DNA from: Planctomycetota bacterium
GTDB taxonomy: Bacteria > Planctomycetota > Planctomycetia > Isosphaerales > Isosphaeraceae
Direction of reading: 5' to 3'
Assembly: GCA_021808995.1 (NCBI GenBank)
Contig: JAKBAP010000004.1
Coordinates: 1,678-37,254 of the forward strand
DNA length: 35,577 bases
Both the position numbers and the translations under genes were made by a program. Below are positions 1 through 21,646 of the stretch, one piece after another; the stretch's first letter is position 1, and each line of letters starts with the position of its first letter. The notes below the pieces were generated by a model that did no database searches, was not told the origin of the DNA, and saw only the letters and a program-made list of their open reading frames with translations.

Positions 1-812
1 AGGGCCGCGCGGATAATGCCCGTGTACAGAACCGGAAGACCGACTCGGCCTCGTCCAAGCTGTCGCACGGCCGCCCGGAGGGTCTCGAGATTCGACCCCA
101 CCAGCAAAAGCGCGCACGCCGGCAAGAGCGCGGGAACGGACGTTTGCCCGATCACGGCCAGCACCACCGACGTATTCGCAAGAGCGAAGCCAGGGGACTT
201 GGGCTCATCACCCCCCCCCGCGAGGCTCGAACGGTGTCTGGCGCGATCAAGCGCCTCCATGATCCGACTCAGCGTGGTCTGGGCCGGGTCGTATTCGATC
301 AGAACGCACCCCGTCGTCTTGCTCGCGACCGAGCGAGTCACGCCAGCCGCGTCCCGCGCCGCCATGCGAACCCGCTCGAAGGCCCCCCTGTCCTTGAGCA
401 AATCCTCATGGCGAAGGCGGACCCGTCCCGGCCGCTGATGAACCATCGCCCAGGTGGTCAGGCTTGAGCCGATCCGGCGCACGGTAACCCGAGGGCGATC
501 GACGATCAGGTCCCGCACGATCGAGCCGGCCGAAACGGCCGCCGTCGAGTCCGCTCCGCGAATCGTCTGGGCCAGGCGCTCGAGCAAGACGAGCAGCCTG
601 TCGGCCGCGACGGGAACCACCAGGGCCTCGCCGAGATCGCGGTTAATCTCAACGCTCGCGACCTCGGGAAGAGCCAGGACTCGCTTGAGGAAGAGCGTCC
701 CGAGCTCAGCCAGCCGAGACCCAAACACATCCGCGTCGCGCACGACGACCCCGCCGGCCCCCGAGGGCACGACCGTGGAAACTACCTTGGCCGCGAGCGC
801 GAGATCGTTCAC
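1..812 (-). CDS. P-type ATPase, N-terminal part (gene runs off left edge), HMA_2-like domain
   Basis: Not in ORF track. Open minus-strand frame from GTG at 812 (preceded by GGAGG) to the edge: VNDLALAAKVVSTVVPSG...ALPEVASVEINRDLG...MVHQRPGRVRLRHEDLLKDRGAFERVRMAARDAAGVTRSVASKTTGCVLIEYDPAQTTLSRIMEALD...TSVPALLPACALLLVGSNLETLRAAVRQLGRGRVGLPVLYTGIIRAA. Collinear with the N-terminal half of the 1945-4590 ATPase (HELPGRLRLK...GTVLVQYDPRQLSRDQIIEILESA...VPGLLPASALLLAYTSIPTFKSARAVLFEERRLGVDVLDA). Confidence 0.8.
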   Translation of the reverse strand, partial: MNDLALAAKVVSTVVPSGAGGVVVRDADVFGSRLAELGTLFLKRVLALPEVASVEINRDLGEALVVPVAADRLLVLLERLAQTIRGADSTAAVSAGSIVRDLIVDRPRVTVRRIGSSLTTWAMVHQRPGRVRLRHEDLLKDRGAFERVRMAARDAAGVTRSVASKTTGCVLIEYDPAQTTLSRIMEALDRARHRSSLAGGGDEPKSPGFALANTSVVLAVIGQTSVPALLPACALLLVGSNLETLRAAVRQLGRGRVGLPVLYTGIIRAA

Positions 813-859
813 GGAACCTCCATTCGTGGGGTTCGGGACGAGGAGACGCGGAAACGAGC

Positions 860-1090
860 TCACTCGGCGACAAAGGGACGCAGCGATCCGCTCTCGACCA
901 TTTGCTCAAGCATCGTGGCGATCTCGCTCTCTTGACGGTCGAAGACGTTGAATACCATGCGCAATTGGTGCCGCCGCCGCTCGACTTCGTAACCGAAGTA
1001 GAGCAGGCCGAGCGTCCCCACGATAATCGTTGTGATCGAAACTTCCTCGCCGTTCATGGAACCTCCCAGGCCGATGGGGACGAAAATCAT
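860..1090 (-). CDS. Small single-TM hypothetical protein
   Basis: 76 aa ORF, hydrophobic N-terminal segment (ITTIIVGTLGLLYFGYEV), 4-nt overlap with the upstream 178-aa ORF, same strand as the cluster. Confidence 0.65.
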   Translation of the reverse strand: MIFVPIGLGGSMNGEEVSITTIIVGTLGLLYFGYEVERRRHQLRMVFNVFDRQESEIATMLEQMVESGSLRPFVAE

Positions 1091-1623
1091 AGGAGCTCCG
1101 TGGTGGTCTCTCGCAAGACCCGGATCATGCCGTCTAGTCCCTCGCGATAAAGCTCCTTACGCACCGCCCGGTCCATCGGGACGACCGTGCGGTTCAAGGC
1201 GATGAAACGCAACAGCTCTTGCAGCCGGGCGAGCGCCTGCTCGGGGCTCTTGACCAGCCCCAGGTTGAGCCGAAAGCCGCGATAACCCCGATCCTTGCGC
1301 TCCGAGGGCGCGTAGCGATCATAGACCAGGATGATGGGGTCGTGCCCGATCAACCGGGGAGCCCCCTTGATGAGCTCGATCGATTGTTGCTTCGAGAGAA
1401 TGTAGATCGAGTCTTGTTTTTCGAAGGCCGCCAGGGTGGTAATGTGCGAGTGAACGACACTGGCGACCGCGCTGTTCCAGCCGGAGTCGATCAGGAAGAT
1501 GTCAAACCGTTTCGCCGCGGGATCAGGCGCTACGTCGGTGGAAGCGAATCGAAGATCGAGATCGACCTTGGGCGGCGATTTCCGCTTCTCGCCTTTCTCA
1601 TGCTTTTCGCTCTTGTCGGCCAT
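1087..1623 (-). CDS. Hypothetical protein (Lys/Glu-rich N-terminus, soluble)
   Basis: 178 aa ORF in the collinear minus-strand cluster; no family recognised. Confidence 0.7.
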   Translation of the reverse strand: MADKSEKHEKGEKRKSPPKVDLDLRFASTDVAPDPAAKRFDIFLIDSGWNSAVASVVHSHITTLAAFEKQDSIYILSKQQSIELIKGAPRLIGHDPIILVYDRYAPSERKDRGYRGFRLNLGLVKSPEQALARLQELLRFIALNRTVVPMDRAVRKELYREGLDGMIRVLRETTTELL

Positions 1624-1658
1624 GTCGGGTCCTCGGATTCGCGGGCCAGGAAGAAGGC

Positions 1659-1970
1659 TCAGAGATCGAGCTCGGTGGCGACGCTCTCAATAAAGTCCAC
1701 GGCCTGACGGCGATTGGCCTCGGTGGCCATCATCTTGGCCGCCAGGCTGAGCTCGGCGTCGACCACCATTCGTTCGTGCGTGAACCGGACGATGAACGAG
1801 ATCCATCGCGCCTTGATGACGAGCTCGGGCCTGTCCGCGCGCCACTCGAGCTCGGTTGGCGTGGGGATCTCGTTCCTGCGCTGGTGAAAGGCCGCCTGAA
1901 TCGCCGCGCGAGCGGGTGCGTCGATCGGGCGCTTGATCGGCCGTTCATAGAGCGTTTCTCTCCAGGCCAT
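1659..1970 (-). CDS. Small protein, possibly polyhydroxyalkanoic-acid-system (PHA_gran_rgn)-like fold
   Basis: 103 aa ORF overlapping the 3' end of the ATPase gene. Weak resemblance by eye: LEWRADRPELVIKARWISFIVRFTHERMVVDAELSLAAKMM...VDFIESVATELDL. Confidence 0.6.
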   Translation of the reverse strand: MAWRETLYERPIKRPIDAPARAAIQAAFHQRRNEIPTPTELEWRADRPELVIKARWISFIVRFTHERMVVDAELSLAAKMMATEANRRQAVDFIESVATELDL

Positions 1971-4590
1971 ACGCTTGCCTCAATTCCTGGGAATGGCGTT
2001 TCTCGGCCTCGAGCTCGGCGATCTTGCGAAGCGGGAGCATCCCGTTGCCAAGCGCGGCCAGGGCCGCCACGTTGTTGGTGACCACCGACGCCATGATACC
2101 GAAACCCAGCGAAAAAACTCCGATGATACACGCGATATTCGGGGCCAGGATCAACCGCCAACTCCTTCTCACATTCTGATCCAGGTCACGCGCGATGTCG
2201 CGGAGGTCACAGAGCTTTGACAAGCCCTCCTCCAGAAACACGATATGGGCCGTGTCGGTCGCGATCGACGAAGCACCTCGCAGCGAAATCGAGACGTTGG
2301 CTTGCTTGAGCGCGATCGAGTCGTTGATGCCATCTCCCACGAAGCAGACCTTTTTTCCCTCCTTTTGCAGGGCGATGACATGGTCGGCCTTGTCCGCGGG
2401 CAACACCTGGGCGAAATAACGGTCCATGCCCAGCGATTCCGCCAGCCGCCGCGTCGGTGCCTCGTGATCGCCCGAGATGATCGCGATGTGCTTGATTCCC
2501 CGCTCGCGAAGCCCCTTGACGATCGCCTTCACCTCCGGGCGAACCGCCGCGTGCAACTCTAGAGCGCCCCCAAGCGCCCCGTCGACCGCGACCATCACCA
2601 TCGTGTGCCCCTCGCGATGAGCCTGGGCAAGCCCCTCCTCGATATCCGGCGGGACTGGAACCCCCTCCAGATCCATGAACCGTCGGCTGCCGACCTTGAT
2701 CGTTCGGCCCATCACCGACACCGTGATCCCATAGCCGACCTTGTATTGGGTGTCGTCGGTCGGGGGCAATTCCAGGCCCAGCTCCTGGGCCTTGTGCAGG
2801 ATCGCAAGCGCGATCGGATGATGAAACCGCCGCTCGGCCGCCGCCGCGTACAACAAGATCCGCTCGGGCTCGAACCCCTCCGCCGCCAGCATCCGGCCCA
2901 CTTCAGGGCGTTCGCGAGTCAGGGTGCCTGTCTTATCAAACAAAACGGTGTCGACCTCGTTCATGAGCTCAAGCGCGCGCCCATCCTTGACCAGGATCCC
3001 CTTGTTGGCGCAGAGCGCCAGCGACGACAGCATCGCCAGCGGGGCGGCCATCCGAATGCCCGTGCCAAAATCGCTATTAAGCACCGCGACAGCACCCCCA
3101 GGACCCATCGTCGCCATCCCCAGAGCCCCCACGGCCAGCGTGGGAATCACCGCCTTGTCGGCCAACCGCTCTCCCTTGTGCTGCGAGCTGAGCTTATAAC
3201 CGGCCGTGTCGTTCAAGATCCGGCTGATCTTCGCCGAGGCCGTGTCCGAACCCGATTTCTCGACCTCCACGAAAATCTTTCCCGCCACCATCAACGTCGC
3301 CGCGAAGACCCGGTCCCCCACTCCCTTTTCCGCCGGCGTTGATTCGCCCGTGAGGGCATGCTGGTCAATTACCGCCATCCCCTGGGCGATCACGCCGTCG
3401 ACCGGCACCACCTCTCCCGTGTTGACCACGATCGTGTCGCCTGGCTCAAGCCGATCGAGCGACACCTGGACCTCGACCCCGTCGCGATACAGCCACACGT
3501 ACCTCGGCTGCTTGCCAAACGCGTTGAGCAACAGCTTCTTCGAGTTATCCTGGGTCCGCTTGACCAGCACCTGGCCGAATCCAAGACACCAACACAGAAC
3601 CGCCCCGGGAAAGATCGCCATCGTGCCCAGACAACCGACAACGACGATCGCGTCCAGGACATCGACCCCCAGCCGACGCTCCTCGAACAACACCGCCCTG
3701 GCGCTCTTGAAGGTCGGAATCGATGTATAGGCAAGCAACAAGGCCGACGCCGGCAAGAGCCCCGGAACCGCGAACTGGGCCACCGCCGCCAGCGGCATCG
3801 AGACCGTGCAAAGGGGCAAATGCAGGTCGGGTTTGTCTTTCTCGGCCGGGTGCTCCGCGGATGTGATCGCCGACTCGAGGATCTCGATGATCTGATCCCG
3901 TGAAAGCTGCCTGGGATCATATTGCACCAGGACGGTGCCAGTCAGGGAGCTGGTCTTGTAGTAGTCGATCCCCAGCACGCTCATCAGCTCGCGCTCGATC
4001 GCCTGGCAGAGCTCCCCCTTGCGATGAAGGGCGGGGTTCTTGAGCCGGAGCCGACCAGGCAGCTCGTGCTTGATCTCCCAGTGCGTGACAATCGCGCCAT
4101 GGCGAAAATAGCGGATCGCCCCCTTCGAATCCCGCACCGGGCTCACCGAGGTGATCGTCACGCCGAGAGGCTCGGGCACGGCCGGCTTGCCATTCGCGGC
4201 GGCCTTGCCATTGGTCCCGGCGTGGACACCATTCGTACCGTGGACGCCGTTCGACCCCGCGTGAACGCCATTCGTGCCCGCGTGAACGCCATTCCTGCCG
4301 TGGACTCCATTCGCCGCCGAGCCGTTCTTGGACTCACGGGCCGGATCCAGGATGGCGGAGACGCGTTTGAGAACATGCTGGAGCGAGTAGGTCTTGGCAC
4401 AAAACCCGATCTCAGCGCGAGGGGTTTCGCTCGAGCCCACTTGGCTGCTGATCGTGACCTCGTCGACCTCGGGTGCCTGAAAGATTCGCTCGAGAAACCG
4501 CCGGCAATCCGGGTGGCCGGGCTCGGCGAAAAGCTGGCGGCTCTCAAGTTGGATCCGACCACGAGCGGGAAACCGAATCGCAAGGTCCAT
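1945..4590 (-). CDS. P1B-like P-type ATPase with HMA_2-like N-terminal domain, lacking a CPx motif
   Basis: ORF 1945-4641; start chosen at MDLAIRF (4590). Motifs: TGES, DKTGTLT, HHPIA, GDGINDS; HELPGRLRLK N-terminal domain. TM6 region reads AVAVLNSDFGTGIRMAAPLAML where CPC would be expected. Confidence 0.92.
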   Translation of the reverse strand: MDLAIRFPARGRIQLESRQLFAEPGHPDCRRFLERIFQAPEVDEVTISSQVGSSETPRAEIGFCAKTYSLQHVLKRVSAILDPARESKNGSAANGVHGRNGVHAGTNGVHAGSNGVHGTNGVHAGTNGKAAANGKPAVPEPLGVTITSVSPVRDSKGAIRYFRHGAIVTHWEIKHELPGRLRLKNPALHRKGELCQAIERELMSVLGIDYYKTSSLTGTVLVQYDPRQLSRDQIIEILESAITSAEHPAEKDKPDLHLPLCTVSMPLAAVAQFAVPGLLPASALLLAYTSIPTFKSARAVLFEERRLGVDVLDAIVVVGCLGTMAIFPGAVLCWCLGFGQVLVKRTQDNSKKLLLNAFGKQPRYVWLYRDGVEVQVSLDRLEPGDTIVVNTGEVVPVDGVIAQGMAVIDQHALTGESTPAEKGVGDRVFAATLMVAGKIFVEVEKSGSDTASAKISRILNDTAGYKLSSQHKGERLADKAVIPTLAVGALGMATMGPGGAVAVLNSDFGTGIRMAAPLAMLSSLALCANKGILVKDGRALELMNEVDTVLFDKTGTLTRERPEVGRMLAAEGFEPERILLYAAAAERRFHHPIALAILHKAQELGLELPPTDDTQYKVGYGITVSVMGRTIKVGSRRFMDLEGVPVPPDIEEGLAQAHREGHTMVMVAVDGALGGALELHAAVRPEVKAIVKGLRERGIKHIAIISGDHEAPTRRLAESLGMDRYFAQVLPADKADHVIALQKEGKKVCFVGDGINDSIALKQANVSISLRGASSIATDTAHIVFLEEGLSKLCDLRDIARDLDQNVRRSWRLILAPNIACIIGVFSLGFGIMASVVTNNVAALAALGNGMLPLRKIAELEAEKRHSQELRQAYGLERNAL
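4198..4316 (-). repeat. In-frame degenerate coding repeat NGVHAGTNGVHAGSNGVHGTNGVHAGTNGK
   Basis: Repeated N-G-V-H-(A)-(G/T) units between the two N-terminal domains of the ATPase; the repetition is also visible in DNA (gcgtgaacgccattcgtgcc). Confidence 0.85.
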
Positions 4591-4767
4591 GGTGTGTTTC
4601 GCTTCGTTCTCGAGACTAGGATGCCACGAACGGAGGCCCAATCAGCGCGCGAAGGCCCCCGCCGTCGTCATACGGATGACGCGGAGCCGCATTTTCGCGA
4701 GCGTCGCAGGGGTGTTGTGAAGGACCGAAAGCCGCCCGCCCGAAGCGATCGCGGCCAGTGTGAGCAA

Positions 4768-5031
4768 TCAGACCGTTTGCGATTCGACCGGTCCCGCGTC
4801 CTTGGGGGTTTGCTTCATCTCGGCCATGGCGTCCTGGACGGCCTCGACCCGTTCGGCGACGTGGCGGGCCACTTCGGAATAAGAATCGCCGACGGCCGAA
4901 CTGGCACCCGCGATCCCCGCCGCGATAATGGGACCCAATTTCTCCTTGAGCAATGGCAGATTGGCCCCAAAGGCGGCCCCGACCGCCGCCCCCGCGGCGA
5001 AAAACAGCATCTCGGACTTGGTCACCGGCAT
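4768..5031 (-). CDS. Small membrane protein with Gly/Ala-rich helix
   Basis: Start set at MPVTKSEM (5031) with GGGGAGG upstream; MLFFAAGAAVGAAFGANLPLLKEKLGPIIAAGIAGASSAVGDS. Resembles small Gly-rich membrane proteins found beside HMA_2-type ATPases (DUF5132/DUF6110-like, by eye only). Confidence 0.7.
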   Translation of the reverse strand: MPVTKSEMLFFAAGAAVGAAFGANLPLLKEKLGPIIAAGIAGASSAVGDSYSEVARHVAERVEAVQDAMAEMKQTPKDAGPVESQTV

Positions 5032-5237
5032 CGCGTTCGGCCTCCCCTTCCGAAAAGACTCGCGGCAAGGGTCTTGTCCATCCCTTGCCATCACCAAGGC
5101 ACGGGGCAATTCCCCCAGGCCACGGAACCCGTGAATTCAGACACCTTCATGTTACGTCCTGGGTCAACCACCGGTTCAGAGCATCCGCGCATTACCCCTC
5201 GATTCGTGCCCGCCGATCAGCGAGGTCCCGGAGATCA

Positions 5238-5585
5238 TCAACTCTCGAGGGGCGCGGGGGGTTCCACCATCGGTCGACTCTTGATCTGGTCGATGGCGTC
5301 CCGAGCGGCCTTGGCCCCGTCCACCAGTCCATTCACCATCGCGTTTTCAGTCGGGATCGATCGCGCCAGGAACACCGTCGGAAAGACCACTCCGTACGAA
5401 AGGCTGTAACTCGTCGTGTAGACAAGCCGCGACACGAACCGGCCAAGGACTGGAAGCGACCTCTCCACCGAGGCCCTGGCGTCGGAGGCCCCATCCTTGG
5501 CAGCCTGGAGCGCCGTCTCCATCGCGTCGGCCACGTTTTTCAAAGGATCGCTCGACGCGGCTTCGGTGGCAACATTCTCAGACAT
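5238..5585 (-). CDS. Hypothetical protein, first gene of the minus-strand cluster
   Basis: 115 aa ORF MSENVATEAASSDPLKNVADAMETALQAAKDGASDARASVERSLP...; Ala-rich helical N-terminus, central hydrophobic part. Confidence 0.7.
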   Translation of the reverse strand: MSENVATEAASSDPLKNVADAMETALQAAKDGASDARASVERSLPVLGRFVSRLVYTTSYSLSYGVVFPTVFLARSIPTENAMVNGLVDGAKAARDAIDQIKSRPMVEPPAPLES

Positions 5586-5930: not shown

Positions 5931-6995
5931 TCATTCAACCTTGAGAAAATAAAAGCCAACGCCGAGCATCAGGAAGACGGCGACGAGCATGGCTCCTTCG
6001 AGCCAATCGGATTCGCCGTCGAAGGTGATGTTGTTGACCAGGATGACGGCGATGGCGACCGCGACGATTTCGAGCCGGGTGAACAGCAGATCCATGGGCG
6101 TGGAAGTGAACAGGCTGGCGAAGATGAGGGCAGGCGCGACGAGCAGGGCGATTTGGGTGGCCGCTCCGATGACGCTTCCGACGACCAGATCCATCTGATT
6201 CTTGCGAGCGAACGTGATGGCGTTCATGATGCTCGAGACGTTGCTGACGGAGGCCAGCAGGATGATCCCGGCGAAGACCGCGTTGAGGTGGAGCATCTTG
6301 GTGGCCGGTTCGAGCGAGTCGGTGAGGATCTCGCTCACGAAGGCCAGCGCGAGGGTCGCGCCCGCCAGATTGAGCAAGGCTCGTTTCCAGGAGCCGGTCT
6401 GGGCGAGATTGAGCTCGCGGGGTCCGGCGGTTTCGAAGAGCTTCCGGTGGGTGGCGAGCGTGTAAATCAGGCTAAGCCCGTAAACAAGGAGGAGGATGAA
6501 CGCGATTTTTCGGCTGATTTCGTGTTCGGCGGCCGGCGAGGAAAAGTGGAAAAGCGCGGGTACCATCAGGCCCACGACGGCGAGCATCATCAGGGTGGTC
6601 GACATCCGGGCCGACCGGACGTTGAACCGCTGAACCGGGTGGGTGAGCCCCCCCACGAACATCGCCAGGCCGAGGGTGAGCAGCAAATTGCCCAGGATCG
6701 AGCCGGTCAGCGACGCCTTCACGACCTTGAGCAGGCCGTTCTTGAGCGCGAAAAAGCCGATGATGAGCTCGGGCGCGTTGCCCATGGAGGCGTTCAAGAG
6801 CCCCCCAAGTGTCGGCCCGATGTGGACGGCCAGTGATTCCGTCGCCCCACCCACGATTTTCGACAGGGGCACGATCGAGAGCGCGGCCGAGCCGAAAACC
6901 AGGATCGGGCTGGCTTTGGTCCACCACAAGACCGCCGCGATCGGAATCATGATTAACAAAAGGTTGAGCGTCAGCTTGACCGGCGATTCCTTCAT
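5931..6995 (-). CDS. Calcium/proton exchanger (Cax/ChaA type, CaCA family)
   Basis: 354 aa polytopic protein with GNAPELIIGFFALKNGLLKVVKASLTGSILGNLLLTLG and the repeat half NVSSIMNAITFARKNQMDLVVGSVIGAATQIALLVAP. Confidence 0.92.
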   Translation of the reverse strand: MKESPVKLTLNLLLIMIPIAAVLWWTKASPILVFGSAALSIVPLSKIVGGATESLAVHIGPTLGGLLNASMGNAPELIIGFFALKNGLLKVVKASLTGSILGNLLLTLGLAMFVGGLTHPVQRFNVRSARMSTTLMMLAVVGLMVPALFHFSSPAAEHEISRKIAFILLLVYGLSLIYTLATHRKLFETAGPRELNLAQTGSWKRALLNLAGATLALAFVSEILTDSLEPATKMLHLNAVFAGIILLASVSNVSSIMNAITFARKNQMDLVVGSVIGAATQIALLVAPALIFASLFTSTPMDLLFTRLEIVAVAIAVILVNNITFDGESDWLEGAMLVAVFLMLGVGFYFLKVE

Positions 6996-8667: not shown

Positions 8668-10842
8668 TCACGCCTCGGACGGCCGCAGCAGCCGAAGCGC
8701 GTTGAAGACGACGAGCACGCTGGTGCCGACGTCGGAGGCGACGGCGATCCACAGGTTCGCGAACCCAAGCACGGCGGCGATCAGGACGGCGACCTTGACG
8801 ACGAGCGCGATCGCGATGTTTTGACGAATCCGCGCCAGCACTCGCCTCCCGTGTCGGATCAACCAGGGCAAGCGGCCCAGGTCGTCGGCCAGGAGGACGA
8901 TATCGGCGGATTCGAGAGCGGCCCCGCTCGAGACGCCCCCGAGCGCGATCGAGACCTTGGCCGCGGCGAGGGCGGGCGCGTCGTTGACGCCGTCGCCGAC
9001 CATGCCGGTCGGGCCATGATGGGCGTCGAGCTCGGCGATGGCCTGGACTTTGTCGGCGGGCAGCAGGCCGGCCCGTTCCTCGCTCACCCCAAGTTCGCGG
9101 GCCACCGCCGCCGCGGTCCGAGCGTTGTCGCCGGTGAGCATCACCGTACGCAGGCCCAGCCCCTGGAGCTCGGCCACCACCCGAGCGGCCTCGGGGCGCG
9201 GTCGATCGGCCAGCCGGATAAACCCCAGCGGACCCGACGACGCGGAAACCGCGACCGCCGAGCCAACCGAATCCTCCGCCTTGTGGAGCTCGTCGTGAAA
9301 ATCAGGCTCGCACATGCCTAATTGATCAATATAACGATGGCTCCCGAGATAATACTCGACGTCCTCGACCCATCCCAAAGCGCCCAGGCCTGGGATCGCG
9401 CGGTAGCCGTCGGCGATGGGGACCACGAGCTCGCGGGCGCGGGCGTGGCGAGCGATCGCCTTGCCCAGGACATGCCCACCCCGATCGCCCAGCGCGGCCG
9501 CGATCGAGAGCAACCGGTCCTGGCCGCCCGCGCCGGCCGCGCAGACGACCTCGACGACGTCCGGCCGGCCGCTCGTCAGTGTCCCCGTCTTGTCAAACGC
9601 GATCGCGCTTAAGCGCCCGACCTGCTCGAGATATTCGCCTCCCCGGATCAAGATCCCTCGTCGCGCCGCCGCCGCCAGGCCGCACACGATCGCCACTGGC
9701 GTCGCGATCACCAGTGCGCACGGGCACGAGATCACCAGCACCACCAGACCCCGATTGACCCACTCCCTCACCACCCCCGAATCCAGACCAGACCACCCTG
9801 AGCTCACCATCGTCCAGACCAAGGGCAAGACCATCACCAGCAGCGACACCGCCACCACGATCGGGGTATAAACCGCCGCGAATCGCGTGATCCGTCGCTC
9901 CACCCCCGCCCGACCAGCCCGCGCTGACCGCACCTGGTCCACGACCCGCGCGACCACCGACTCGCTCACCGGGCCGTCGGCGCGGACCTCGAGAGTTCCC
10001 TCCCCATTCACGGTCCCCGCGTGCACGAAATCCCCAACCTCGCGCGGGGTCGGAACCGACTCGCCCGTGATCGTCTTCTCATCGACGCTCGATCGACCCA
10101 CCGTCACCTCGCCATCCACGGGGATCACCTCGCCGGCGCGAACCAGCACGCGATCGCCCCGAGTGATCGCGCTCGCGGGGGTGGCGCTCGTCCGGCCGTC
10201 ATCTCCGATCCGCTCGGCCATCGTTGGCGCGACCTCCAAGAGCGCCCGCACCGATCGCCTGGCTCGCTCAAGCGAAAACGACTCCAGCAGCTCGGAGAGC
10301 CCATACAAAAACGCGACCGTCGCCGCCTCGTCCCACTCGCCCAGGCAGACGGCCCCAATGACGGCCAGACTCATCAGCACGTCGATATCGAGGCGCGCTT
10401 TGAGCGCGTTCCGAATCGCGCGGGGGAAAAGCCCGACCCCGCCGATCGCGATCGCGAGTCCGTAACACACCTCGGTCAGCCGATGCTCGACCGACGATTC
10501 GAGACCCAGGGTCTCACCCCAGGAGGCGACACTCAGCGCGGACAGGAGCGCGACCCCCGACCCTGCCGTCAGGACGAGTCGTTCGTGGCGCGACCACCAC
10601 GAGGCCGTTGGCACCGGGATGCCCTGCTTGGTCGCGCGCATCCCGGTTCGGGTGGTGATGACCGCGATCAGCCGATCGGGGTCCGTGAGCTCGGGGTCGT
10701 GGTCGATGGTGAGCGTGCCGTGGATCAGGTCAAACGAGAGCCCGGCGATCCCTGGCTCTCCGGCCAGGGCTTGGCGGAGGGTCTCGATCTCGTTCGGGCA
10801 ATCCAGTCCGGGAATCCCCAGCGTACAGCGGTCCTCGCTCAT
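8668..10842 (-). CDS. Heavy-metal P1B-type ATPase (Zn/Cd/Pb class)
   Basis: ORF 8668-10899; start set at MSEDRCTLGIPGLDCPNE (10842). SCPCALVIATPVAI, TGES, DKTGTLT, GDGVNDAPALA, C-terminal VVFNALRLLR. Confidence 0.95.
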   Translation of the reverse strand: MSEDRCTLGIPGLDCPNEIETLRQALAGEPGIAGLSFDLIHGTLTIDHDPELTDPDRLIAVITTRTGMRATKQGIPVPTASWWSRHERLVLTAGSGVALLSALSVASWGETLGLESSVEHRLTEVCYGLAIAIGGVGLFPRAIRNALKARLDIDVLMSLAVIGAVCLGEWDEAATVAFLYGLSELLESFSLERARRSVRALLEVAPTMAERIGDDGRTSATPASAITRGDRVLVRAGEVIPVDGEVTVGRSSVDEKTITGESVPTPREVGDFVHAGTVNGEGTLEVRADGPVSESVVARVVDQVRSARAGRAGVERRITRFAAVYTPIVVAVSLLVMVLPLVWTMVSSGWSGLDSGVVREWVNRGLVVLVISCPCALVIATPVAIVCGLAAAARRGILIRGGEYLEQVGRLSAIAFDKTGTLTSGRPDVVEVVCAAGAGGQDRLLSIAAALGDRGGHVLGKAIARHARARELVVPIADGYRAIPGLGALGWVEDVEYYLGSHRYIDQLGMCEPDFHDELHKAEDSVGSAVAVSASSGPLGFIRLADRPRPEAARVVAELQGLGLRTVMLTGDNARTAAAVARELGVSEERAGLLPADKVQAIAELDAHHGPTGMVGDGVNDAPALAAAKVSIALGGVSSGAALESADIVLLADDLGRLPWLIRHGRRVLARIRQNIAIALVVKVAVLIAAVLGFANLWIAVASDVGTSVLVVFNALRLLRPSEA

Positions 10843-11015
10843 TCCACCCCCCGTGAGCATGCGCGCGAACAGGCTGACCCAGCATGGGCCAGCGAGCAAT
10901 TATAGCGCGAACCCGACTTCGCGTGAACACGAGCGTCGGTGTTCGGGGATTGCCAGGGCGATCCGCGGAAATCCTGGCGGTCGAGATTCGTAAGCCGGCT
11001 CATCGAGAACGAATC

Positions 11016-19014: not shown

Positions 19015-20178
19015 CTAGTTGAATTCCGATGCCGAGCGAGCCAGGCGTACGATTCGCCAGCCCTCGGTTCCGAATCGGATCTCGCGCTCGGCGAATTCCC
19101 AGATCACGAGTTTTTTATTCGATAGCAAGGCCGGCCTTCGCGCCAGGTCTTGCCGGACCAATGTCGACCCGCCCCCGTCGTTGACAATCGAGGCGAGCGG
19201 ACGCCCGAGCTCACGCGCCAGATGCGCGATCAGCCCGGCCGCGCCAGGCACGTCGTGTTCATAGATGCGAAGGAAGCTGTCGCCCAGGATCAGGATCTCG
19301 GAATCCGGGCGATCCTCGTAGGGGGCTCCCGAATCCGATTGGACCACGCGCGAGCAGACGACCGACTCGGGAAGGAGCGAGCCCTTGATCGACGCCGATC
19401 GCAGCATCTCAACCAGATCGCCGGCGCGCTGGGCGACGACCGACCGCTCGGAATAGGCGTGATCACCCCTGGAGAGCACGCCCCCCGCGAGCACCTGTCG
19501 CGCGATGGAGGCCGCGGCCGCGTGGACCCCCGCGGGCGACCAGTGGGTGTCCCTCGCCAGATAAAGCCTTCCCGTGCCCGTGCGGCCCTGGTCCTGTTTG
19601 ACGCGGCGAAACACCTGAAACAAGTCGACATGTTCGATGCCGTTACGATCGAGCTCGTCGAGTAGATGCTGGGTCTGTTCATTCACGACCACCCCCAGGC
19701 CCTGGGCCCGCCGGGTGAGCAGCTCGGGATAAATGCTCTCCTTATTGGGCACGGGCACGACCAGGAGACGAATACCGCGCGCCTGGAGTTGATCGCGGAA
19801 CGACCGGATCGCGGGGAGGGGATCGGAGGAATCGCTCTCGGGACCAATCGCCGGGCGCTCGACCTCATAACGCACGCTTGGTCGATAGAAGAGCCATCCT
19901 TCGCGCCCCACGACGGCTTTTTCACCCGCGTCGTCGAGAAATCGCCACTCGGCGTACTGCATCCGCGGCCGAAGCCGCTGGATCACCAGGCTCGACGCCT
20001 CGAGCCCGTGCTCGTAGGCGTGCAGGTTACGAGCCGTCGGCGGCCTAAGGAAGAGCTCCAGCGCGCCAGGGGTCTCCCCGCGGCGAAGCTCGGCAACCGT
20101 CTGAATCACCCCCGGCGCGATGATCACGGCGAGGAAGCCGGCGGCCAGATAGACGTAAGCGCGACGGTCGATGGGCAC
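19015..20178 (-). CDS. AlgJ/AlgX-like SGNH-type acetyltransferase
   Basis: GIRLLVVPVPNKESIYPELL, LYLARDTHWSPAGVHAAA, ILILGDSFLRIYE; 10 nt downstream of the algI-like gene. Confidence 0.85.
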   Translation of the reverse strand: MPIDRRAYVYLAAGFLAVIIAPGVIQTVAELRRGETPGALELFLRPPTARNLHAYEHGLEASSLVIQRLRPRMQYAEWRFLDDAGEKAVVGREGWLFYRPSVRYEVERPAIGPESDSSDPLPAIRSFRDQLQARGIRLLVVPVPNKESIYPELLTRRAQGLGVVVNEQTQHLLDELDRNGIEHVDLFQVFRRVKQDQGRTGTGRLYLARDTHWSPAGVHAAAASIARQVLAGGVLSRGDHAYSERSVVAQRAGDLVEMLRSASIKGSLLPESVVCSRVVQSDSGAPYEDRPDSEILILGDSFLRIYEHDVPGAAGLIAHLARELGRPLASIVNDGGGSTLVRQDLARRPALLSNKKLVIWEFAEREIRFGTEGWRIVRLARSASEFN

Positions 20179-20188
20179 GGATGGGAAC

Positions 20189-21646
20189 CTAGAACTGGAA
20201 ATAGAGAAACGGGTTGAACGACTGCGAGAACATCACCATGAGCGAGAGGCAAAAGAGCGGGTGCACGACGACGGCCTTGGGCCAGGTGATCTCCCGGCTC
20301 CAGTCATGCGCCTGCGTGGGCCAGGCGACGATCAGCAAGGCGACGGCCATGAAAACAAGCGTTCCGCGCGTGTACAACAAGGCGGGTATGAGCAACATTC
20401 CCGAGCCCGAGCCCCCCTGTCCCAGCATGGCACCCAGATAGGTGACGGCCTCGTGAAGCGTGGCCGCGCGGAAGAGGACCCACGAAATCACCACCAGCAC
20501 GAACGTGGCCGCTACCCGGACCGGCCGCGGACTTCGTTGATACGCGCTACGCTTTCCCTGGAATCGCTCCCACGCCAGCAACACCCCGTGATACGCCCCC
20601 CACGCGACGAACGTCCAGTTCGCGCCATGCCAGAGCCCCCCCAGGAGCATGACCACGATCAGATTGAAATAGGTACGAACCGCCCCCCCCCGATTGCCAC
20701 CCAAGGGAATATAGAGATAATCACGCAAAAAGGTGCTCAATGAAATATGCCATCGTCGCCAGAAATCGGTGATGTTCTCGGCCTTGTAGGGGGAATCGAA
20801 GTTTTTCAGGAATTCGAATCCAATCATTCGTCCGAGTCCGACGGCCATGTCGGAATAGCCCGAGAAATCGAAGTAGATTTGCAGGGTGTACGCCAGCGCG
20901 CCAAACCAGGCGTCGGGAGCGGAGAGGGACTGGGCTCCGAAGGCGGCGTCGGCAACCCGGCCCATGGCGTTGGCGAGCAGGATTTTCTTGGCGAATCCGA
21001 GGATGAACAGGGTGACGCCGGAGCTGAATTTTTCCAGGGTGTGGGTTCGGCTCACGAGCTGATCGGCCACGGTGTTGTAGCGGATGATGGGCCCGGCGAC
21101 GAGCTGGGGAAAAAGCGCGATATAGCAGGCGAAATCCAGGAACGACCGGACGGGGGGGGCGGTTCCATGATGGACGTCAAGGGTATAGCTGAGGGCGTGG
21201 AACGTGTAAAACGAGATCCCGATCGGGAGCGTGATTTCGAGCACGTGAACCGGGCCGGCCCCAAGCCAAGCGAGCGCCTGGTTGAGGTTGATCTCGAGGA
21301 ACATGAAATACTTGAAGAATCCAAGGGTGCCAAGGCTGACGACGACGGCGAACGTCGCGACCCAGAAGCTTAGCCGGCGGCTGATCCCTGGCTGGCCGAT
21401 GATCCGTCCGCAGACATAGTTAACGACCGTCACCCCCAGCATCAGGAGGATGAACCAGGGATTCCACCAACCGTAAAAGAGATAGCTGGCGACGACCAGG
21501 AGGGCGTTGAGCGCGAGGCAAGTGCCCGAACTGGACGCGCCCACCCGGCGGCTCAGGTGGTCGACGGCGTGGTACGACGCCAGGACGAGCGGCAGAAAGT
21601 AAAAGACGAAAAGATATGTAGTAAAGACCATGCTCAGCCAGGCCAT
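20189..21646 (-). CDS. MBOAT family O-acyltransferase (AlgI-like)
   Basis: VFTTYLFVFYFLPLVL, ISFYTFHALSYTLDVHHG, LQIYFDFSGYSDMAVGLGRMIGFEFLKNFDSPY, DFWRRWHISLSTFLRDYLYIPLGGNRGG, LGGLWHGANWTFVAWGAYHG. Confidence 0.96.
   Translation of the reverse strand: MAWLSMVFTTYLFVFYFLPLVLASYHAVDHLSRRVGASSSGTCLALNALLVVASYLFYGWWNPWFILLMLGVTVVNYVCGRIIGQPGISRRLSFWVATFAVVVSLGTLGFFKYFMFLEINLNQALAWLGAGPVHVLEITLPIGISFYTFHALSYTLDVHHGTAPPVRSFLDFACYIALFPQLVAGPIIRYNTVADQLVSRTHTLEKFSSGVTLFILGFAKKILLANAMGRVADAAFGAQSLSAPDAWFGALAYTLQIYFDFSGYSDMAVGLGRMIGFEFLKNFDSPYKAENITDFWRRWHISLSTFLRDYLYIPLGGNRGGAVRTYFNLIVVMLLGGLWHGANWTFVAWGAYHGVLLAWERFQGKRSAYQRSPRPVRVAATFVLVVISWVLFRAATLHEAVTYLGAMLGQGGSGSGMLLIPALLYTRGTLVFMAVALLIVAWPTQAHDWSREITWPKAVVVHPLFCLSLMVMFSQSFNPFLYFQF

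Follow-up and report, generated by a model that had tools for sequence, protein, structure and literature searches.

A conserved gene cluster pairing an intact P1B-like ATPase with a catalytically degenerate paralogue and often linked to a Cax-type exchanger

We find that a P-type ATPase devoid of its catalytic motifs persists as a single clade, beside an intact paralogue and within a compact gene cluster, in several bacterial phyla. The cluster lies at the start of the 35,577-nucleotide stretch of planctomycete DNA analysed here (the window), which spans bases 1678-37254 of contig C1 in an assembly of 586 contigs and 5.17 Mb. A full-text literature search for P-type ATPase pseudoenzymes found no account of them, and there seem to be hardly any descriptions of conserved pseudo-P-type ATPases. 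Our preferred reading, which we hold tentatively, is that the two proteins may form a complex of pump and pseudopump that moves a hard divalent cation, probably Ca2+, and works with a Ca2+/H+ exchanger.

The initial annotation described seven collinear genes on the minus strand, and all seven open reading frames are indeed in place: orf1 (5238-5585, 115 aa), orf2 (4768-5031, 87 aa), ATP1 (1945-4590, 881 aa from the ATG), orf4 (1659-1970, 103 aa), orf5 (1087-1623, 178 aa), orf6 (860-1090, 76 aa) and ATP2 (1-863). The short overlaps between ATP1 and orf4 (1945-1970, 26 nt) and between orf5 and orf6 (1087-1090) are real. The tight packing that had been noted holds from ATP1 onward, but not ahead of it, where gaps of about 206 nt (orf1/orf2) and about 177 nt (orf2/ATP1) separate the genes. 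ATP2 starts at 863, or at a GTG at 812, and its frame runs beyond the start of the window; the window holds the N-terminal third, and most of the remainder can be read from the contig start (locus L004, in which ATP2 occupies 3-2540). The frame there is open from 2540 to the contig end, interrupted at 1668-1677 by a scaffold gap of 10 N. A second contig of this assembly, C276, ends in a stretch that matches the first 135 bases of C1 with 99.3% identity, and the two contigs very likely join there. On C276, outside the window, gene8 (19149-19640; locus L169, 11150-11641) follows directly after ATP2 on the same strand. Given this overlap and the strand of gene8, it is very likely that the source genome, too, has all eight genes in the order found in relatives. 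Rfam elements were absent from the window and from six cluster loci, thus no known riboswitch lies behind the linkage of these genes.

ATP1 has the features expected of an active P1B-like ATPase with an HMA_2 N-terminus. Its TGES, DKTGT, HP and GDGIND motifs are intact, as they are in the ATP1 proteins of main-cluster relatives, its N-terminal motif reads HELPGRLRL, and it scores 395 bits against TIGR01525 (cut-off 346) and 44.3 bits against HMA_2 (PF19991, cut-off 30), the profile against which it had been suggested that the protein be checked. The first ATPase had also been called CPx-less, and rightly so: the intramembrane site SDFGTGIRMAAPL reads S-D-F-G-T at the position where SCPC is expected, leaving the protein without the thiol site of P1B-type ATPases. 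Across the main-cluster intact ATP1 proteins this position reads S/C/A-D-(F/L/M)-G-T; Asp and Thr, or neighbouring sulphur-free residues, occupy the places of the CPC cysteines, so that no thiol ligands are present there. Identities between ATP1 proteins of different phyla are 60-70%, and dN/dS for close pairs is 0.03-0.11. About 3.1 kb upstream of orf1 the window encodes an ordinary Cd/Zn-type P1B ATPase (8668-10899; TIGR01525 553 bits, CPC present). In a tree with this exporter as the outgroup, ATP1 stands apart from it, inside a larger clade of HMA_2-linked ATPases (support about 0.98-0.99), in accordance with the proposal that the ATPase is distinct from ordinary exporters.

ATP2 has lost every catalytic motif. 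TGRG replaces TGES, DDHPA replaces DKTGT, GDRDID replaces GDGxND, HP is absent, and the score against TIGR01525 falls to 128 bits (cut-off 346), below what is required of a P1B-type enzyme. The N-terminal motif HQRPGRVRL is retained, and the match to HMA_2 is weak (16.8 bits, cut-off 30). The initial annotation spoke of two paralogous HMA_2-type ATPases; the two genes are paralogues and ATP1 carries a clear HMA_2 domain, but ATP2 matches it weakly, and the pair is really one pump and one pseudo-pump. Thirty-one sequences form the ATP2 clade with support 1.0, and DKTGT is missing in all of them. From dN/dS values of 0.09-0.36 for close pairs, higher than those of ATP1 yet well below 1, ATP2 is judged to be under purifying selection; these values, together with the persistence of ATP2 as one clade, rule out that it is a pseudogene. 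An AlphaFold model of the ATP2 orthologue in locus L037 (pLDDT 84, pTM 0.70) matched P1B ATPases in the PDB with a best E of 2.5e-33. TM-scores were modest, about 0.3-0.55, which is in line with what a protein of several mobile domains should give. The model predicts that ATP2 keeps the complete P1B ATPase fold, probably with two N-terminal ferredoxin-like domains, as judged from the order of strands and helices.

Isosphaeraceae also have secondary clusters (L115 7107-14878, L132 and L135) that encode three more degenerate ATP1-like proteins. There the degenerate ATPase accompanies orf5, in some cases with orf1, orf6 or a DUF454 protein, and no intact partner ATPase immediately adjoins it. These copies group with ATP2, with support of 0.998 for all dead copies, a grouping to which a long-branch effect may contribute.

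The remaining genes encode small proteins, and profile searches placed orf1, orf2, orf5, orf6 and gene8 in no named family at a meaningful score. Orf1, small and amphipathic or hydrophobic, matches no Pfam, NCBIfam or PHROGs family; its own family has 10 invariant columns and extends over Planctomycetes, Gamma- and Alphaproteobacteria and Acidobacteria, and a member also lies immediately ahead of an ATP1-like ATPase on a Methylobacterium plasmid. Orf2 is a Gly/Ala-rich helix protein seen solely beside planctomycete clusters (12 of 37); DUF5132 and DUF6110, raised earlier as profiles to compare it with, gave no match. Orf4 appears to be an ATP1-associated domain, since seven other genomes have it as an in-frame extension of the ATP1 C-terminus. 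As an identity for orf4 we rejected PHA_gran_rgn (PF09650), which it matches at 14.4 bits (cut-off 26.6) and which two of 21 members match weakly. Among the other profile matches, a FeoC-like one of 15.3 bits, likewise below cut-off, was set aside. Orf5 is a soluble alpha/beta protein with no Pfam family above chance. Its AlphaFold model, of moderate confidence (pLDDT 79), has a thioredoxin-like topology, and Foldseek returned weak matches to thioredoxins (best thioredoxin E 0.041); it was not accepted as a thioredoxin, since the window protein has no cysteines and thus no CxxC. Orf6 has a short N-terminal hydrophobic helix followed by a small cytoplasmic domain. Its length of 76 aa and the hydrophobic helix agree with its earlier description as a single-TM protein, but the membrane span is only tentative, since the hydropathy of the helix does not reach the cut-off of 1.6. 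In relatives, the gene after ATP2 is gene8, which encodes a protein of about 107-160 aa.

The arrangement is conserved well beyond the source genome. Isosphaeraceae share the core order orf1-ATP1-orf5-orf6-ATP2-gene8 with other Planctomycetes, with Methylococcus-type gammaproteobacteria and with one member each of the alphaproteobacteria and the acidobacteria. A script run over the fetched loci gave orf1-orf2-ATP1-orf4-orf5-orf6-ATP2 for Isosphaeraceae, and orf1-ATP1-orf5-orf6-ATP2 is found in the Methylococcus-type gammaproteobacteria, Rhodopila and Acidobacteriales. In a tally of 37 clusters, a few of which share one genome, we counted ATP2 in 35, gene8 in 34, orf1 in 33, orf5 in 31 and orf6 in 31, in each case after orf5; orf2 and orf4 were seen in Planctomycetes only. 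Because it is kept in about 35 other clusters, the gene arrangement is, on this comparison, not a product of chance. The co-conservation of the small genes with the ATPases, on which the initial annotation had staked its case, is therefore evident (orf1, orf5 and orf6 in 31-33 of 37 clusters), and its broader picture of a metal- or ion-handling cluster with an unusual CPx-less ATPase and small proteins of no known family is supported. The distribution is patchy. Of 151 genomes from the Methylococcus-type order, 20 carry orf5; among alphaproteobacteria it was detected in one of 337, and among acidobacteria in two of 247, the second of these matches being marginal. Searches with orf5 and ATP1 across 294 evenly drawn planctomycete genomes returned the source genome as the sole match, thus few planctomycetes beyond the cluster's own family carry it; ATP1- or ATP2-like genes occur in 30 of 45 genomes of the order, counted by hand. 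Such patchy spread, combined with the 60-70% identity of ATP1 across phyla, suggests horizontal transfer of the cluster.

The strongest functional clue is the linkage to a Cax-type Ca2+/H+ exchanger. In the window the exchanger (5931-6995, minus strand, 354 aa) lies upstream of orf1, scores 297 bits against TIGR00378, and is the only cax found in the source genome. A TIGR00378 search of 38 carrier genomes showed that at least 20 (21 when the second cluster of genome G307 is included) have a Cax no more than 12 kb from the cluster, where 0.62 would be expected at random placement, a chance figure that overstates independence because carriers are related within lineages. In about half of the carriers the cluster lacks a neighbouring Cax, and in three no Cax was detected at all. 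Since the linked Cax proteins spread over several separate parts of the Cax tree, the linkage seems to have more than one origin. Cax proteins as such are well known, and the linked gene is clearly one of them; what differs here is its recurrent position next to a P-type pump/pseudopump cluster.

How might these proteins work together? We propose a membrane pump complex in which ATP1 is the working P1B-like ATPase and ATP2 a dedicated pseudo-ATPase. ATP2 would keep the pump fold and an HMA_2-like N-terminus, self-phosphorylation should be impossible for it, and it would probably serve as a regulatory or structural partner. Orf4 would be a subunit or domain of ATP1, and orf1, orf5, orf6 and gene8 would be accessory parts. 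ATP1 probably exports a hard divalent cation, most likely Ca2+, from the cytosol to the periplasm or to an internal compartment, and would do so together with the Ca2+/H+ exchanger. We infer a hard divalent cation, with Ca2+ first, from the Cax linkage, the linked polyphosphate kinases described below and the cysteine-free site of ATP1; a site of this kind would suit Mn2+, Fe2+, Mg2+ or other ions as well, and gene neighbourhood by itself is no proof of a complex.

A question that follows is whether the cation is stored. In an acidocalcisome-like compartment, the pump and Cax would load Ca2+ into vesicles and polyphosphate would hold it there. The conjunction of a Ca2+ transporter with polyphosphate synthesis by which such compartments are recognised is found here, in the Cax linkage (at least 20 of the carriers) and in the presence of polyphosphate kinase, and is suggestive only. 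The kinase is present in all 38 carriers and in seven of 14 control genomes, but ppk is common in bacteria and the controls are unrelated to the carriers. In addition, four genomes of three classes (two Methylococcus MAGs, Rhodopila and Acidobacteriales) have a second ppk in the vicinity of the cluster, where 0.35 is expected (P about 4e-4); the two MAGs are similar, leaving about three independent cases. In these MAGs (L051 202-8972 and L052) the order is polyphosphate kinase-orf5-orf6-orf1-ATP1, followed by a Pit-type phosphate transporter that adjoins the Methylococcus clusters, and ATP2 is absent from the locus. Against a store, ppk linkage is lacking in all planctomycetes examined, and no direct sign of a Ca2+/polyphosphate compartment was seen. 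The excerpts of the literature on intracellular Ca-carbonate formers treat other transporters and name no such cluster. We therefore regard an acidocalcisome-like compartment as unlikely, and give similarly little weight to the bolder idea of a horizontally spread, organelle-like Ca2+/polyphosphate store in which an active P-type ATPase has a dead pump as an obligate subunit.

The cluster had been likened to a ferrosome locus, in which ATP1 would pump iron as an ATPase of the FezB type (P1B-6) while the small proteins shape an iron-storing membrane compartment. The likeness that survives is that both systems combine an HMA_2-linked P1B-like ATPase with small accessory proteins, and that ATP1 shares its HMA_2-linked clade (support about 0.98-0.99) with fez-like plasmid ATPases, among them one on a Cereibacter plasmid beside FeoA, TonB receptors and FecR; the comparison set consists of fez-like plasmid ATPases and loci, with no authentic FezB or FezA among them. 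The other testable fez features did not bear the comparison out. The small proteins differ: orf1, orf2, orf4, orf5, orf6 and gene8 had no match in eight plasmid loci with HMA_2-type ATPases, apart from orf1 at the Methylobacterium locus. FezC is, according to PMC10979944, a DUF4405-like cytochrome in Desulfovibrio-type fez clusters; DUF4405 is unlinked in 37 of 38 carriers, lies about 7.5 kb away in one, and was not found in the source genome. The membrane sites also differ, the fez-like ATPases having a Cys (D-Y-x-C) at a place where ATP1 has none, and the pseudo-ATPase is an extra component here. Iron genes are absent among recurrent neighbours, and the window contains no canonical Fur box with up to 3 mismatches allowed, although planctomycete Fur boxes may differ. 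ATPases of HMA_2/DUF5132 clusters branch nearer to ATP1 than do those of the fez-like set, and the cluster on a Gloeothece plasmid also combines an HMA_2-type ATPase with a second HMA_2 protein (1.6-kb), but it has no homologues of orf1, orf5 or orf6. We thus downgrade the ferrosome reading, now quite improbable, although the shared clade made it a sensible lead, and tentatively prefer a Ca2+-type pump/pseudopump complex.

An ordinary exporter of a transition metal (Mn, Zn, Ni or Co), accompanied by a degenerate paralogue left to drift after duplication, strikes us as equally doubtful. ATP1 does belong to the P1B family of CopA and ZntA, scoring above the TIGR01525 cut-off with all catalytic motifs, and ATP2 is predicted to share their fold. 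Rhodopila has, by eye, an orphan orf5-orf6 pair near CbiMNQO-like cobalt transporter genes. The cluster differs from those exporters in the missing CPx, in an HMA_2 N-terminus with PGRxR and in the dead partner, and a drifting duplicate would not be expected to stay under purifying selection and hold together as a single clade across several phyla. Metal-resistance regulators or efflux partners are not recurrent beside the cluster, where Cax is the commonest neighbour.

If the substrate of the pump/pseudopump complex is Ca2+, the cluster would represent a new bacterial calcium system, and the involvement of a compartment would make it relevant to the way in which bacteria construct organelles for ion storage. 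Aquisphaera insulae (L038) is among the carriers in culture, which makes the cluster testable.

Other neighbours were diverse. In a survey of 85 neighbouring proteins, EcsC and Phenol_MetA_deg occurred five times each and most others were single genes. An EcsC-family protein (PF12787) lies near ATP2 and gene8 at L098 13340-14164 and in six other gammaproteobacterial loci. A protein of about 400 aa recurs at L124 17553-18791, where it is lipoprotein-like, and in ten other loci; the one member scanned had no clear Pfam family. Farther along the window (19018-21646), an AlgX-like SGNH hydrolase sits beside an MBOAT acyltransferase, which looks like a polysaccharide acetylation pair.
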